A stretch of DNA of 61,719 nucleotides, from assembly GCA_947625935.1 (NCBI GenBank), contig CANQQE010000015.1, positions 1-61,719 on the forward strand, read 5' to 3'. Source of the DNA: an uncultured Muribaculaceae bacterium. Lineage in GTDB: Bacteria; Bacteroidota; Bacteroidia; Bacteroidales; Muribaculaceae. The position numbers and the translations under genes were made by a program. This document shows positions 51,831-59,356 of the stretch, piece by piece (the stretch's first letter is position 1; each line of letters begins with the position of its first letter). A model generated the notes under the pieces. That model made no database searches. It saw nothing but the letters and a program-made list of their open reading frames with translations, and was not told the DNA's origin.

Positions 51831-52664
51831 ATGATTCTTTGCGAGAACCTTAATTACACCTACAATACAGGCCGTCATGCGTTGGTCGATGTCAACGCCG
51901 CCATTCTCCCCGGACTTCATCTGCTCATGGGGGAGAACGGCGCCGGCAAAACCACCCTCCTGCACGTCATCGCGGGTCTCCTGTTCCCGCAGTCCGGACG
52001 CTGCACCCTCGACGATGTCAATGTGGCGCGCCGCGAGCCATCGACAATGAGCCGGGTGTTCTTCCTCGCCGACAATATGCAATGGTCAGCGGCGACGATC
52101 AACCAGCTTGTCGCCACCCATGCCTGCTTCTTCCCCTCCTTCGACGAGTCGCTGCTACGGTCTAACCTCGAAGCCATGGGGCTGACAGGCGCCGAAGGGT
52201 TGAGAGCGTTGTCGCTCGGAAACCGCAAGAAAGCCGCCATTGCCTACGCCCTGTCTCTGCGCACCGACGTTCTACTCCTCGACGAACCCGCCAACGGCCT
52301 TGACATAACAGGCAAAAAAGCCTTGCAGAAGATTCTGATGCAGTCGATGACCGACACCCAGACCGTAATCGTATCCACCCACACCGTCTGGGATCTCAAA
52401 AACCTCTTTGAAAGCGTCATGATGGTGCGCCGCGGCCGACTGGTGCTAAACGCCTCCATCTACTCCATCCTCGATAAACTCGCTTTCGTCTTCACACCCG
52501 CTCCCGTCCCGGGCGCGCTCTACTCCGAGGAAGAGATGGGCGGCTACCGCTCGATTGTGCCTAACGACGGCACCGTCGAGAGCGACATCAATTTCACCGC
52601 ACTCTATAGCGCGCTGTCATCCGACGCCGCCATGCCGGGCATTTTACGTCAACTTAACTATTGA
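51831..52664 (+). CDS. ABC transporter ATP-binding protein
   Basis: A 277-residue ATPase of the drug/lipid exporter type. Walker A GENGAGKTT is at 34-42, the signature reads LSLGNRKKA (a variant of LSGGQ with NRKK), Walker B and the D-loop are DVLLLDEPANGLD and the switch histidine is in VIVSTHTV. The last 70 residues form a family-specific tail. It is paired with a membrane protein and a GntR repressor in one operon, a layout common for YtrA-type cell-envelope-stress exporters. Confidence 0.9.
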   Translation: MILCENLNYTYNTGRHALVDVNAAILPGLHLLMGENGAGKTTLLHVIAGLLFPQSGRCTLDDVNVARREPSTMSRVFFLADNMQWSAATINQLVATHACFFPSFDESLLRSNLEAMGLTGAEGLRALSLGNRKKAAIAYALSLRTDVLLLDEPANGLDITGKKALQKILMQSMTDTQTVIVSTHTVWDLKNLFESVMMVRRGRLVLNASIYSILDKLAFVFTPAPVPGALYSEEEMGGYRSIVPNDGTVESDINFTALYSALSSDAAMPGILRQLNY

Positions 52665-52672
52665 TTGTGATC

Positions 52673-53488
52673 ATGGATACAACTTCTATAGCCGCTTTGC
52701 AGCGCAACGACTCTTTTTCATGGCGGCGTGTCGCCATGGTATGGACCTACTATTCCCCGGTTCTCAGAATGCAGTTGTGGCTTTGGCCGCTGATAGCCGC
52801 CGGAATATATCTGATGGGGATGCTCACGGCTCTATCGCCCGTCTCCTTGGTCAGTTCCTTTGCTATCTCCGGCCTCTCGATGCTGATAAGTTTCGGCCCG
52901 TTGATGCTGATCAGAAACAATGCCATTGTCAGTGAGACGATGCTGCCCGTGAGGGCCGATGAGAAATTTGTCTTCTACCTCCTCTACTTCCTCATCGTTG
53001 TCCCGGTGTTGACCATTCTCACTGTCGGTGCGCTACACCTTGTGGCGACAATGATTTTTGGTGCCGAACGGCTACACGACTACACTGTACTGCTGACACA
53101 GCGCAGCCTCATGGTCGAGTACACCTACGGTATCGGTATTTTCGGTGAAGCGATTGGCGTTCTGGCCTGTCTTTTCGGCGTGACGGCCTTCACGCGCAAC
53201 CGCGCCTTGGCCGGAGTTGGATTCGTTATCGGTTCCGGCATCGCCATCGGCATGATTGGTGCCATCATGGGCATAATAATGGCTTTTGTCTCAGGTTTCG
53301 CCGACGGCTTCCTTCAGATAGGTGAAATCGCCGAGCGCGACCCCGGCAACACTGGGGTCATAATGGACGAGATGTATAAATTGCCAATCATGAGACTCAT
53401 GATGATTGTCGTCTCAAGCGTTGCGGCCTTAGGGAGCTTCCTCCTTGCCTACCTGATGTTTCGTCGCCTTCGCAATCGTCAAATCTAA
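52673..53488 (+). CDS. ABC transporter permease-like membrane protein
   Basis: A 271-residue membrane protein with about six predicted helices, first spanning about residues 38-58. There is no strong family motif, but its place directly after an orphan ABC ATPase, and before a GntR regulator, makes it the likely permease. The ATG at 52673 (MDTTSIAALQRNDSFS) is preferred; an upstream TTG would overlap the ATPase gene. The substrate is unknown. Confidence 0.72.
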   Translation: MDTTSIAALQRNDSFSWRRVAMVWTYYSPVLRMQLWLWPLIAAGIYLMGMLTALSPVSLVSSFAISGLSMLISFGPLMLIRNNAIVSETMLPVRADEKFVFYLLYFLIVVPVLTILTVGALHLVATMIFGAERLHDYTVLLTQRSLMVEYTYGIGIFGEAIGVLACLFGVTAFTRNRALAGVGFVIGSGIAIGMIGAIMGIIMAFVSGFADGFLQIGEIAERDPGNTGVIMDEMYKLPIMRLMMIVVSSVAALGSFLLAYLMFRRLRNRQI

Positions 53489-53511: not shown

Positions 53512-53862
53512 ATGGATTTTAAAACCGATCGACCAATATATCAACAGATTGTCGACTATTGCTACACCCGCATCCTCTCCGGCGAGTGGCCTCCCGACGG
53601 AAAAATTCCATCGGTTAGAGAGCTTGCTATGGCCTTGTCGGTCAACACCCACACAGTCCTGAAAGCTCTTGAGACTCTCCAGTCGGCCGAAATAATCATA
53701 CCCCGCCGCGGATTGGGATTCTTTCTTGCCCCCGATGCGCCCGGGCGCGTGATGCAGGCGCGACGCCAGGAGTTCTTCGACACAACTCTCGCCGAACTTT
53801 TCCGCGAGATGGAGATGCTGGGCATCTCCATCGACGACGTCGTCGATCACTATAAACAGTGA
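53512..53862 (+). CDS. GntR-family (YtrA-type) transcriptional regulator
   Basis: A 116-residue regulator. The winged helix-turn-helix is at 1-75 with DRPIYQQIVDYCYTRILSGE, KIPSVRELAMALSVNTHTVL and the wing IIPRRGLGFFLA, all typical of GntR. The short C-terminal part is two helices without an effector-binding domain, which is the YtrA subgroup. Such proteins repress their own ABC transporter operon. It is the last gene of the operon, whereas in Firmicutes it is usually the first. Confidence 0.9.
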   Translation: MDFKTDRPIYQQIVDYCYTRILSGEWPPDGKIPSVRELAMALSVNTHTVLKALETLQSAEIIIPRRGLGFFLAPDAPGRVMQARRQEFFDTTLAELFREMEMLGISIDDVVDHYKQ

Positions 53863-53906
53863 ATGCTACATCTATCCCCGTAGCTACACATATATAAGGT
53901 TAATAG

Positions 53907-53951
53907 ACGCATGAAGGGGAGCGACTAATCAAATCGCTCCCCTTCATGCGT
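53907..53951. terminator. Bidirectional hairpin between convergent genes
   Basis: ACGCATGAAGGGGAGCGA pairs perfectly with TCGCTCCCCTTCATGCGT (18 bp) around a 9-nt loop. It lies 45 nt after the GntR gene and 16 nt after the Cys/Lys-repeat gene that comes from the other side. T-runs are weak (TCTTTT on the plus side). Confidence 0.75.
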
Positions 53952-53966
53952 TCTTTTGCGCTGATC

Positions 53967-54284
53967 TTATTTTTTGCATTCGGCTTTTTTGCACTCAGCT
54001 TTTTTGCAGTCAACGTTTTTGCACTCGGCTTTTTTGCACTCAGCTTTTTTGCACTCAACGTTTTTGCAATCGGCTTTTTTGCAGTCAACGTTTTTGCAAT
54101 CGGCCTTCTTGCACTCAGCTTTTTTGCAGTCAACGTTTTTGCAATCGGCCTTTTTGCACTCCTCTTTCTTGCATTCTACCTTGGCCTTGCAGCACGATTC
54201 AACTTTATTGCAGGTAGTCACATCTGCGGCATTGAGCGAAACGCAAAGTGCGATCGCGCTCAGCATAAGTAAGATTTTTTTCAT
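53967..54284 (-). CDS. Secreted Cys/Lys-rich pentad-repeat protein
   Basis: I do not recognise a characterised family. The 105-residue protein has a signal peptide (MKKILLMLSAIALCVSLNA, cleaved before ADVTT), so it is exported. The mature part is almost wholly a tandem of five-residue units: CKKAE, CKKAD, CKNVD and CKNVE, about 14 copies plus a partial one, each starting with cysteine. It is therefore strongly basic and has cysteine at every fifth position (roughly 18 in all). Metal binding or disulfide cross-linking is possible. The DNA repeat unit is 15 bp, so copy number could change by slippage. It lies divergent from the OmpA-like gene, with tandem repeats between them. Confidence 0.75.
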   Translation of the reverse strand: MKKILLMLSAIALCVSLNAADVTTCNKVESCCKAKVECKKEECKKADCKNVDCKKAECKKADCKNVDCKKADCKNVECKKAECKKAECKNVDCKKAECKKAECKK

Positions 54285-54330
54285 AATCTGAATGTTATTG
54301 TCTAAATGGTTATATTAATTGCATACTATA

Positions 54331-54368
54331 TATAAGTATAACGGAATCATATAAGTATAACGGAATCA
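54331..54368. repeat. Two tandem 19-bp direct repeats
   Basis: TATAAGTATAACGGAATCA occurs twice back to back (54331-54349 and 54350-54368). The pair lies about 50 nt upstream of the Cys/Lys-repeat gene and about 300 nt before the OmpA-like gene. It may be a repeated operator or a local duplication. On the minus strand it contains TATACTTATA, AT-rich enough to form a promoter core. Confidence 0.75.
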
Positions 54369-54671: not shown

Positions 54672-55811
54672 ATGAAAAAATCAATTCTTTTAGTTGCTGC
54701 TGCATTCGGTGTATTCGCAGCGCAAGCTCAGGAGACAACGCAAGCAATTGCTACTCCTAAATTGACTGACAACATCCAAGTAGGTATCGATGGTGGCGCT
54801 CTTGCTCCCCTCAAAGGCGGTGATTTCTTCAAAGACATCCGCGGAGGTTTCGGTATCCACATCGACAAAATGATTACTCCCACTTTCGGCATGGGTGTTG
54901 AAGGCTATGCTACTATCAACACTTCTTCTTGGAAGTACAGCCAGGGCCACAGCGCAACCGCTATCGACAACTCTTACGTTGGTCTCTATGGTCGTGTTAA
55001 CCTCTTCAACCTCTTCGGTGGTTACAAGTGCGAAGGCCGTAAATTTGACATGGACCTCATCGCAGGTGCAGGCTGGGGCCGTTACTATCAGACCCACGGC
55101 GGTTACAGCAACTACTTCGCTACCAAGGCAGGTCTCTCGTTCAACTACAACGTGAACAAAAACCTCACCTTGTCACTCAAGCCCTCTGTAGTTTACAACA
55201 TGAGCGACGCTCCCGCTTCTCACACTTCTGCTGCCTACGACGCTCGTCTCGCTTCTTTCAACCTTTTTGCAAGCGTTAGCTACAACATCAACCCCGGTTT
55301 CAACTGCGTTCGTCCCTACGACCAGGCTGAAGTTGATGCCCTCAACGCTCAGATCAACGACCTCCGCGGTCAGCTCGACGGTTGCGTAGCCGCTTCCAAC
55401 GCTTGGCAGGCTAAGGCTAACGGTCTCGCTGCTGAACTCGCAGCTTGCGAAGCTCGCAAAGCCGTTGTTAAAGAAGTCGTTTCTAACACTATCAACTCTG
55501 TTCGCTACGTATTCTATCGCGTAGGTTCTTCTAAGATTCTTGCCGATCAGCAGCCCAACGTTGAGATGATCGCCAAGTACCTCAAGAACCACCCCGAAGC
55601 TAAACTCGTCGTTAAGGGTTACGCTTCTCCCGAAGGTAGCGCTGAGCTCAACGCTAAACTCGCTGCTGCTCGTGCTGAGGCCGTTAAGACAGCTCTTGTT
55701 AAGAAATACAAAGTGGCTGCTGACCGCATCACTGCTGAAGGCGAAGGCGTTGGTCACATGTTCGAGGAAGAAAGCTGGAACCGTGTAGCAATCTGCACCC
55801 TCGACAAATAA
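54672..55811 (+). CDS. OmpA-family outer membrane protein
   Basis: A 379-residue outer membrane protein. After a signal peptide (cleaved after QAQ or QA, about 20) comes an eight-strand-like beta barrel (about 30-215) with alternating aromatic strands, then a short coiled coil with AEVDALNAQINDLRGQLDG and a second helix (about 220-265), and a C-terminal OmpA peptidoglycan-binding domain with VFYRVGSSKILADQQPNVEM, LVVKGYASPEGSAELNAKLA and RITAEGEGVGHMFEE. It anchors the outer membrane to peptidoglycan. Codons are uniform, suggesting very high expression. It has its own promoter and terminator. Confidence 0.92.
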   Translation: MKKSILLVAAAFGVFAAQAQETTQAIATPKLTDNIQVGIDGGALAPLKGGDFFKDIRGGFGIHIDKMITPTFGMGVEGYATINTSSWKYSQGHSATAIDNSYVGLYGRVNLFNLFGGYKCEGRKFDMDLIAGAGWGRYYQTHGGYSNYFATKAGLSFNYNVNKNLTLSLKPSVVYNMSDAPASHTSAAYDARLASFNLFASVSYNINPGFNCVRPYDQAEVDALNAQINDLRGQLDGCVAASNAWQAKANGLAAELAACEARKAVVKEVVSNTINSVRYVFYRVGSSKILADQQPNVEMIAKYLKNHPEAKLVVKGYASPEGSAELNAKLAAARAEAVKTALVKKYKVAADRITAEGEGVGHMFEEESWNRVAICTLDK

Positions 55812-57055: not shown

Positions 57056-57965
57056 TCTGTAGGTCGTTTGCGGGTAACGTCACTGGTTTTTTCCAACGTT
57101 TGTGGGTCCACAGCCAGTTTGCGGGGTCTCTTCTTATCGTTTCTTCGAGCAGAGCCGCATATTGGTCTGTAAGCTCCATCGGTTGCAGCTTCGAGGCGTC
57201 CTCCGTGAGCAGCTTCATTTTGATGGTATAGTGCCCTCGTGAGGTCTTCCTCATGTCCCAGTACACCACAGCCATACCGAGCTTCGAGGCGAGAGTCTCG
57301 GTGCCGGTGATAAACGCCGTTGGGTGGTTCAGGAACATCAGCACCCGCGTCGGGTCGCCGTGACTTGGCTTTTGGTCGCTCATGAACCCCGTGATCGACG
57401 GCATATGGTCACGCCTGAGTCTGATCAGGTCGCGGAGAACGCTGCTCTTGGGAAACGACAGCGGCTTGAAGCGGCTGCGTATCTTGAGCATATAGGCGTC
57501 AAACCATTTGTTGCGCAGTGGGCGGTACACTTGGCAAAACTCAGCGTCGATACCCGCCTTCAGGCTGCTCCACAAGGTGATCGACGGTGCCCACTCCCAG
57601 TTGAATGTATGGGCGAAGTAAGCCACTATTGATTTCCCCTCGCTCATCAGGCGGTCGATTTCCTCGATTCCCTCGAAGGTCATGCGGCGTTTGATTTCGC
57701 TGTCTGAGATATGCCCTATTTTGACTGTCTCAACTATATAGTCGGCGAAGTTGCGGTAAAACTGGCGGCAGATTTGGCGGTGTTCTCGCTCGCTCTTTTC
57801 GGGGAACGAGTCAGTGATATGTTTCAATGCCACTTTGCGGCGGTAACCGACTATATGGTAAAGCACCGCGAAAATCACGTCCGACAATCCATAGAGCATC
57901 CACATCGGCATTCGCGAACCTGCGGCGAGCATCAGTTGCAGCGGCTTGTATTTCCACTCCTTCAT
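57036..57965 (-). CDS. LpxL/HtrB-family lipid A acyltransferase
   Basis: This family adds secondary acyl chains to lipid A from acyl-ACP at the inner membrane. The start is set at the ATG 57965, whose ATGA overlaps the mtaB stop; an ATG at 57971 is in frame too. The 309-residue protein has an N-terminal hydrophobic region and the catalytic H-X4-E pair in YFAHTFNWEW (His119, Glu124), followed by the QVYRPLRNKWFDAYM and GFMSDQKPSHGDP blocks. Bacteroidales lipid A is usually penta- or tetra-acylated, so one such enzyme is expected. Confidence 0.88.
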   Translation of the reverse strand: MKEWKYKPLQLMLAAGSRMPMWMLYGLSDVIFAVLYHIVGYRRKVALKHITDSFPEKSEREHRQICRQFYRNFADYIVETVKIGHISDSEIKRRMTFEGIEEIDRLMSEGKSIVAYFAHTFNWEWAPSITLWSSLKAGIDAEFCQVYRPLRNKWFDAYMLKIRSRFKPLSFPKSSVLRDLIRLRRDHMPSITGFMSDQKPSHGDPTRVLMFLNHPTAFITGTETLASKLGMAVVYWDMRKTSRGHYTIKMKLLTEDASKLQPMELTDQYAALLEETIRRDPANWLWTHKRWKKPVTLPANDLQNDTKQR

Positions 57966-59278
57966 AGGCATACCTCCCCGGCGATTTCCTCGCCACCGTT
58001 TATTATCTCGTTTAGTTTCACGTTGACTATGTTGTTGTCCAATGAGCTGTCGGCCGTTACCCTCACTTTCAGGTAATTGTCGGTGAAACCCGACATTGTG
58101 CCGTCGTGGCCGTGTTCCAATAGTGCCGGGCGAGTCTGTCCGACAAACCGCGCCGCGAATTCCGACAGCTTTTTCTCCGATAGATTGAGCATCACGCGGG
58201 TGCGGCGGTGCTTCTCCTCCTGAGTCACTATGTGGTCGATTGAGAGAGCTTTGGTCCCGGGACGTTCAGAGTAGGGGAACACATGGAGCTGCGAGATGTT
58301 GAGCGACTCGATGAACTCCCGCGACGCCTTGAACTCATCGGCTGTCTCTCCGCGGGCCCCGACGATAAGGTCTACACCGATAAACGCGTCAGGCAGCGCG
58401 TGGTTGATTCGCTCTATCCTGTCGCGGAAAAGGGCCGTGTCATAGTGGCGGCGCATCAGCTTCAGCACCGCGTCCGACCCGCATTGAAGCGGTATGTGGA
58501 AATGCGGCATGAAACTGCGCGACCCTGCGACGAAGTCTATGATTTCAGGCGTGAGCAGGTTCGGCTCTATCGACGAGATGCGGTAGCGTTCTATTCCTTC
58601 AACCTTGTCAAGCTCTTTGATGAGGTCTAAAAACGTGTCATCGCGGCCCTTCCCGAAGTCACCGATGTTGACCCCGGTGATTACGATCTCTTTACCGCCG
58701 TTGGCGGCCGCTTCTCGAGCCTGATTCACTATATCGCCGATGCTCCCGGAGCGGCTGCGGCCGCGGGCCATCGGGATGGTGCAGTAGGTGCAGTAATAGT
58801 CACAGCCGTCCTGAACCTTCAGGAAATAGCGCGTGCGGTCGCCGTGTGAGCATGACGGGATAAACCGGCGTATGTCGCGGGTAGGCGTAACGGTCAGGGT
58901 AGGGCGGTGGGTCGATGTCCACTCATCCAAAAATTTGACGAGCTGGTCTTTTTGGTCGTTTCCGGCCACTACCGCCACTCCCGGTAGCGTGGCGGCCTCG
59001 TCTCCCTTGAGCTGGGCGTAGCAGCCTGTCACTAAGATAGCCGCCTTCGGATAGCGTTTCGACAGTGAGCGGATGACTTGGCGGCTTTTCTTGTCGGCAA
59101 GCTCCGTGACGCTGCAGGTGTTGACGACGATGATGTCGGGGTTCTCGCCGATCTGTGTCCGGCGTATACCCCTGTCGGCAAGAAGCTTGGCTACTGTCGA
59201 GGTCTCCGAAAAGTTCAACTTGCAGCCGAGTGTGTGGAAAAGCGCGGTGCGGTTGTCAAATGTCGATTTATCTATCAT
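57962..59278 (-). CDS. mtaB: tRNA (N6-threonylcarbamoyl-A37) methylthiotransferase MtaB
   Basis: MtaB converts t6A37 to ms2t6A in tRNAs reading ANN codons. The ATG at 59278 (MIDKSTFDNRTALFHTLGCK) is chosen; an upstream start would run through the promoter. The 438-residue protein has the N-terminal cluster cysteines 19, 55 and 86 (TLGCK, NTCSVT, TGCYA), the radical-SAM cluster QDGCDYYCTYCTIP (159, 163, 166) and a C-terminal TRAM domain. GITGVNIGDFG-like ITGVNIGDFGKG identifies the MtaB rather than the MiaB branch. It heads the operon with lpxL and GT2. Confidence 0.92.
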   Translation of the reverse strand: MIDKSTFDNRTALFHTLGCKLNFSETSTVAKLLADRGIRRTQIGENPDIIVVNTCSVTELADKKSRQVIRSLSKRYPKAAILVTGCYAQLKGDEAATLPGVAVVAGNDQKDQLVKFLDEWTSTHRPTLTVTPTRDIRRFIPSCSHGDRTRYFLKVQDGCDYYCTYCTIPMARGRSRSGSIGDIVNQAREAAANGGKEIVITGVNIGDFGKGRDDTFLDLIKELDKVEGIERYRISSIEPNLLTPEIIDFVAGSRSFMPHFHIPLQCGSDAVLKLMRRHYDTALFRDRIERINHALPDAFIGVDLIVGARGETADEFKASREFIESLNISQLHVFPYSERPGTKALSIDHIVTQEEKHRRTRVMLNLSEKKLSEFAARFVGQTRPALLEHGHDGTMSGFTDNYLKVRVTADSSLDNNIVNVKLNEIINGGEEIAGEVCL

Positions 59279-59303
59279 GATGCTCCTGTTCTCATTGAAT
59301 TTA

Positions 59304-59311
59304 CAAAGGTA
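59304..59311 (-). promoter_or_regulatory. -7 box for the mtaB operon
   Basis: Minus-strand TACCTTTG matches the -7 consensus and lies about 26 nt before the mtaB ATG. The -33 position has a T-rich stretch without an exact TTTG. Confidence 0.5.
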
Positions 59312-59356
59312 ACGCTTTTTGCCTATCGAAAATGTGTCATTTTCCACCTTTTTCTA

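Follow-up and report, generated by a model that had tools for sequence, protein, structure and literature searches.

A predicted exported protein with a cysteine-pentad array in a Muribaculaceae genome, and cysteine-rich segments on other envelope proteins of the family

The Cys-pentad gene and its surroundings

The window, meaning the whole stretch of 61,719 nucleotides that was analysed, carries on its minus strand a short gene whose product joins a signal peptide to a tandem array of five-residue units that each begin with cysteine. The gene and its surroundings comprise the following features.

53967..54284, minus strand: whole Cys-pentad gene, an ORF of 105 aa with exact coordinates
54225..54284, minus strand: signal peptide, residues 1-20, approximate (hydropathy scan, cleavage site by eye)
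54174..54224, minus strand: leader DVTTCNKVESCCKAKVE, 17 residues with 3 Cys (translation)
53970..54173, minus strand: array of 13 pentads plus CKK, residues 38-105 (15-bp unit, 45-bp superrepeat)
53905..53954, no strand assigned: hairpin between two convergent genes, candidate two-way terminator (folding energy)
54330..54368, minus strand: 19-bp direct repeat upstream of the Cys gene, 2.1 copies, 100% match (TRF)
53512-53862: GntR-type regulator (PF00392), convergent with the Cys gene, with the hairpin between them
52661-53488: hydrophobic protein without a Pfam match, between the ABC ATPase and GntR genes
51831-52664: ABC ATPase, preceding the GntR regulator
54672-55811: OmpA-domain gene (Pfam), on the other side of the Cys gene
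57962-59347: radical SAM gene, carrying UPF0004

The signal peptide, MKKILLMLSAIALCVSLNAA, ends near NAA at about residue 20 and, as judged by eye, contains no lipobox. The original prediction of a signal peptide followed by a periodic Cys polymer was borne out by the exact ORF, the hydrophobic core and a shuffling test, in which none of 100,000 shuffles of the 85-residue mature part reached its 13 Cys pairs at distance 5 (maximum 10). An estimate of about 14 units had been fair, the count being 13 full pentads and a final CKK, and the proposed unit C-K-[KN]-[AV]-[DE] describes 12 of the 13 pentads and fails for the first, CKKEE. The mature part resembles metallothioneins in being Cys-dense and poor in aromatic residues, with 17 Cys, 27 Lys and 17 Asp plus Glu among the 85 residues and no aromatic residue. 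More specifically, an acidic residue precedes 14 of the 17 Cys and a lysine follows 15 of them.

At the DNA level, the Cys codon is TGC in 14 of 14 units, while the other positions vary, synonymous changes included. Tandem repeat analysis with TRF returned a 15-bp array of 13.6 copies (78% match) and a 45-bp superrepeat of 4.5 copies (89% match); since the latter fits better, the array probably originated by copying of three-unit blocks. Two ORFs on the plus strand, 53946-54272 and 53974-54291, are antisense readings of the same repeat.

The hairpin beyond the end of the gene folds at -39.7 kcal/mol (z -8.3), and an equally good fold was found in 0 of 200 shuffles. It perhaps serves as a two-way terminator, a role conjectured from its fold and position because it has no clear U-run. 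Upstream, the 19-bp direct repeat is a possible regulatory site or operator pair. No TAnnTTTG, the -7 box of Bacteroidetes promoters, was found within 236 bases upstream of the gene. GntR homologues are present in 17 of the 31 relatives' genomes, the window genome counted. In 17 GntR loci besides that of the window, the frames within up to 1500 bases downstream held at most 2 Cys pairs five residues apart, compared with 13 in the window, and the Cys gene therefore seems to have been added locally.

Relatives in Muribaculaceae

The window gene is a singleton, present in one genome among the named collection and the family searches. Its sole relative in the named genome collection is L004, from a Muribaculaceae MAG, and part of L004 is identical in DNA to L034. 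Since L034 comes from a genome of the window's own family, that family is taken to be Muribaculaceae. Within the family, a search with the window protein matched 21 of 298 genomes and a search with a profile of ten arrays matched 17 of 398, with the window's own genome counted in each. Matches in 5 of the 20 other genomes (L007, L014, L017, L022, L023) and in 3 of the 16 (L032, L036, L040), respectively, were set aside as noise or doubtful. Among the genus mates of the window genome, the near-complete G012 gave no match and G037 gave only L014, one of those set aside as noise; G057 is 68% complete.

The accepted relatives are of several kinds. Small secreted proteins occur in four genomes besides that of the window (L010, L012, L034, L035) and Spy-like proteins with Cys-bearing leaders in eleven; the array search further yielded SdhC tails in four genomes and an exported thioredoxin in one. 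A signal peptide was recognised by eye in every accepted relative save the SdhC proteins and L037, whose array stands at the start of a contig with the N-terminus outside the sequence. No shared neighbours or metal genes were recognised by eye around four small secreted relatives. The thioredoxin (L021:1270-2028) scores over the Pfam cut-off, has the motif WCGPC and bears an N-terminal Cys-rich extension with repeated CEKACDKC.

Wider searches matched 3 of 393 genomes in the order (the window's own and two others) and 6 of 395 in the phylum (its own and five others). A spread beyond Muribaculaceae was rejected, the candidates L062, L063 and L207-L214 being judged to be DNA repeats read in another frame or repeats interrupted by stops. 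In three of these, from outside the order (L210, L213, L214), a long DNA repeat has a frame of VCPAE/DCLAE units that is broken by stops and was judged not to be a gene. A mobile origin was likewise set aside: no relative was found in viral contigs, and plasmid and phage searches, which are weakened by low-complexity masking, gave no match. Two weak PHROGs matches to families of unknown function were read as composition, as were HC2, Asr and similar low Pfam and NCBIfam matches of the window protein.

The Spy-like assignment rests on the Pfam LTXXQ domain (PF07813) for L009, which is over the cut-off, and for L006 and L019, just under it, on alignment for L013, L015 and L024, and on inspection by eye for L011, L016, L020, L038 and L039. 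In a survey that sought Spy-like proteins by their domain, the leaders of 30 loci in the family, counted after residue 18, hold 87 Cys in 1026 residues (8.5%), compared with 4 in 447 (0.9%) at 14 loci outside Muribaculaceae; the in-family loci are the best-scoring 30 of 71 places, the outside set is all 14 with weak matches, and because array-bearing proteins supplied the profile and the top scorers were chosen, the sample leans towards Cys. At least four Cys are present in 12 of the 30 in-family leaders, and from domain start to protein end the same proteins contain 46 Cys in 3682 residues. Furthermore, the median Cys content was 2.0% in a rough signal-peptide screen of 97 ORFs in the family, with the small secreted proteins and the Spy-like ones ranking highest. 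The screened set is enriched for Spy-like loci and includes some membrane proteins as well as antisense ORFs; the window gene had dropped out of this screen, as a longer antisense ORF overlaps it.

Cytochrome b tails and the five-residue register

The SdhC/FrdC cytochrome b proteins were sought by their membrane core, without regard to Cys. Matches were obtained in 67 of 70 genomes of the family; those with fragments only (G001, G019, G028, G047) were left out, as were L078, which is cut by the end of its stretch, and the array-found L018 and L041, giving 62 proteins. Outside the family but within the order, 28 of 44 places were used, the other 16 being frames of 216-256 aa with little room for a tail. 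L005, L008 and L018 score 190-195 bits with NCBIfam sdhC_b558 (cut-off 96).

At least four Cys are found in 24 of the 62 tails in the family; a further 25 are 15 residues or longer with fewer Cys, and 13 are shorter. Tails thus can do without Cys richness. Outside the family, 2 of the 28 tails have at least four Cys, the mean tail length is 3.8 aa, and a single tail (L105) reaches 30 aa. By fraction, however, the outside tails are also Cys-rich (19 of 105 residues, against 326 of 4435 in the family with the two array-found tails included), so the family differs in tail length and Cys number and not in Cys fraction. The SdhC of the window genome itself (L071, G000:C4:131878-132555) has 6 Cys in its tail, and that of L091 has 25. 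A quick tree built from the 62 cores, with weak support for 16 of its 58 inner branches, requires at least 11 changes of the Cys-rich state. Cys enrichment is thus observed in two unrelated protein types, the Spy-like leaders and the SdhC tails.

A crude hydropathy scan of four SdhC proteins gave five membrane segments each. In L018, L084 and L091 segments 2 and 3 are joined by the K/R-rich loop, and the C-terminus is accordingly predicted to lie outside; the segments differ in L071, and 16 K/R are present within the tail of L084. Five-helix FrdC proteins have known features consistent with a periplasmic C-terminus. Short Cys-rich SdhC C-termini such as LCCGAAC, LCCSGCCPA and CGCC (L095, L096, L148, L149) also occur outside the family and are perhaps the starting point of longer Cys tails. 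Other long tails (L094, L123, L125, L131-L139) have 0-2 Cys, are rich in E, Q, A and K, and are perhaps helical.

The spacing of the Cys varies among these proteins. The original prediction had named the loss of the register or the signal peptide in all homologues as evidence against itself; L004, L009 and L015 keep both, with 9 of 17, 9 of 13 and 9 of 14 gaps of five, respectively. Conservation of the register in distant relatives, which it had named as support for a function, is not general: these three retain many such gaps, but there are looser members, for L012 has 0 of 18 gaps at five and L021 has 2 of 20, and in L016 no more than five Cys follow the signal peptide. Across the 24 Cys-rich SdhC tails, distance 5 is the most enriched (66 pairs against 41.7 ± 5.5 in shuffles, with none of 400 reaching it), and there is a deficit at distances 2 and 4. 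Five of the 24 tails have 5 as their leading period. Two tails, L089 and L090, are near-identical, and without the four array-bearing tails the excess falls to 48 pairs against 38.6 (99 of 2000 shuffles). We therefore rejected a conserved register as a defining trait in its strong form, since the excess at distance 5 rests on few tails. CX4C recurs without being universal, and Cys richness is the broader trait and is better kept than the spacing. Arrays in differing letters (CASDNC, CDKKKC, CKKQDC) recur on exported and membrane proteins of Muribaculaceae.

Interpretation and comparison with known systems

We tentatively favour the reading, which we place somewhat short of an even chance, that the window protein is a small exported and probably unfolded polythiol, acting as a buffer for soft metals and for compounds that react with thiols. 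It would be metallothionein-like in action and not a member of the metallothionein family. More specifically, a subset of Muribaculaceae would place fast-changing Cys-rich segments on envelope proteins, namely small secreted proteins, Spy-like leaders, a thioredoxin and SdhC tails, and the window protein would be one of these. Clustered thiolates could hold ions of soft metals (Cu+, Zn2+ or Cd2+, for example) and could take up reactive electrophiles, with neighbouring lysines raising their reactivity. The density of Cys, the acid and lysine around nearly every one of them, the predicted export and the recurrence on envelope proteins all argue for this reading. It is weakened by the absence of shared neighbours or metal genes recognisable by eye, by the occurrence of the gene in one genome, by the 38 of 62 SdhC tails that are not Cys-rich, and by the fact that slippage also explains tandem growth. 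As predicted from sequence, the protein would be periplasmic and disordered and would act by metal and thiol buffering.

Muribaculaceae are among the commonest mouse gut bacteria, and to our knowledge little is known of how their envelope handles metals and oxidants. Beyond the inner membrane, the Cys-rich stretches may act as a sponge for metals or oxidants. If one family carries a recurrent, rapidly changing Cys-rich segment both on a respiratory subunit and on envelope proteins, a selective pressure common to them would be indicated. Among the top-ranked titles and abstract openings of a literature search, whose scope left subscription journals mostly outside, neither a Cys-rich SdhC tail nor a Cys-pentad exported protein is described for Muribaculaceae. 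A far more speculative extension, to which we give only a slim chance, is that secreted polymers, Spy-like leaders, thioredoxin fusions and SdhC/FrdC tails make up one clade-specific periplasmic thiol and metal pool, which would be linked to the menaquinone chain by the tail on the quinone-reactive cytochrome b.

Among the alternatives, the one that survives best is that the array is a slippage product with little or no function, an in-frame 15-bp repeat tolerated behind a signal peptide. The 45-bp superrepeat of similar copies, the 14 identical Cys codons, the restriction of the gene to one genome and the lack of an array downstream of GntR in the 17 other loci all fit such an origin. Against it, arrays with differing letters recur on exported and membrane proteins of the family, and Cys enrichment also emerges from surveys that did not use Cys as a criterion; we consider slippage alone fairly unlikely.

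A redox sink is also unlikely, in our estimate, as the main role. Here the exported thiols would cycle via disulfides, possibly with the help of VKOR and thioredoxins, and buffer O2, H2O2 or hypohalous acids. A VKOR gene over the Pfam cut-off is present in the window genome and, counting it, in 30 of 70 family genomes, which makes disulfide formation plausible and no more, and one Cys-rich extension is fused to a thioredoxin with WCGPC. However, the association of Cys-rich SdhC tails with VKOR is weak: the gene accompanies 15 of 24 Cys-rich tails and 15 of the 38 others (Fisher p 0.12), and a comparison of independent pairs was not significant, so that thiol and disulfide use are not separated by these data. 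In addition, the 17 Cys of the mature window protein are an odd number.

We regard as improbable a pentapeptide-repeat beta-helix with Cys at the central (i) position and Cys ladders lining the core. The array follows A-[DN]-L-x-x loosely, with Cys replacing Leu, and its A-[DE]-C-K-K is the pentapeptide pattern with that exchange: the PF00805 score rises from 13.8 bits for the native array (cut-off 20.2) to 51.7 when every Cys is changed to Leu. Of ten weak PDB matches at E up to 1 (best 0.0027), eight appear to be pentapeptide-repeat proteins: four carry the names McbG-like, Alr5209 or Qnr, and the remaining four are 'beta1' designs, of which one shows the pentapeptide pattern and the other three are presumably pentapeptide designs too. 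However, the native array stays under the PF00805 cut-off and the whole protein has no PF00805 match up to E 1, the array of L018 has no Pfam match, and Cys would be small for such a core. In L009, L010, L015 and L018 a lysine or other polar residue at i-2 would point inward, and such residues in several relatives mean that the beta-helix is not a trait of the group. PMC8145042 gives Leu or Phe as the consensus centre and at least eight contiguous consensus units as the criterion for a pentapeptide repeat. The window array has 13 contiguous five-residue units, none with the consensus centre, and Cys is central in 14 of 14 units. We do not assign the window protein to the pentapeptide repeat proteins, although a Cys-cored beta-helix may apply to it alone.

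An envelope cross-linker, whose disulfides would join chains to one another or to further Cys-rich proteins of the envelope, is in keeping with the several envelope proteins of this family that bear Cys-rich segments and with the presence of VKOR; it has no known partner, and we think it very improbable. Scarcely credible, finally, is a role as precursor of a peptide that is modified at Cys and leaves through the adjacent ABC transporter. In its favour are the matches of the ABC ATPase and the GntR regulator to PmtA and PmtR of the Pmt export family, far under the cut-offs (97 against 350 and 40 against 200 bits), and the presence of the radical SAM gene. Against it, the protein has a Sec-type signal peptide, no Cys array follows the GntR homologues in 17 other loci, and the radical SAM gene, with its UPF0004 domain, looks like a tRNA methylthiotransferase.

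The original prediction knew of no characterised family with this pattern, and indeed no Pfam or NCBIfam entry matches the window protein over its curated cut-off. The best Pfam match is PF25296, 'Decapeptide repeat region' (28.2 bits, E 1.7e-6, cut-off 45), which seems to reflect the pentapeptide pattern, since its score rises on changing Cys to Leu (28.7 to 31.7). The likeness to pentapeptide proteins (PF00805) lies in the five-residue repeat with a small residue at i-2 and an acid at i-1, whereas the window array has Cys at every centre and several relatives do not keep i-2. YjbI of Caulobacter is, according to PMC12864828, an exported pentapeptide protein with Cys pairs, but its four Cys flank the helix.

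Metallothioneins, phytochelatins and synthetic Glu-Cys polymers are short, Cys-dense, hydrophilic and of low complexity, with an acid adjoining Cys. The window protein shares these traits with them and differs in its signal peptide, its mostly regular five-residue register and its richness in lysine; it has no metallothionein match in Pfam or NCBIfam up to E 1. Spy-like LTXXQ proteins (L006, L009, L015, L019, L024) likewise place a Cys array after a signal peptide, but the window protein lacks the LTXXQ domain, with no PF07813 match up to E 1, and looks like a Spy-like leader standing alone. The SdhC/FrdC b558 proteins (TIGR02046; L018, L065, L084) also carry CX4C arrays, on the predicted periplasmic side, whereas they are membrane-anchored respiratory subunits whose tail letters differ from those of the window array. 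In the grouping made here, that of Muribaculaceae exported Cys-rich segments, the window protein fits with its signal peptide and its Cys-dense, low-complexity segment.
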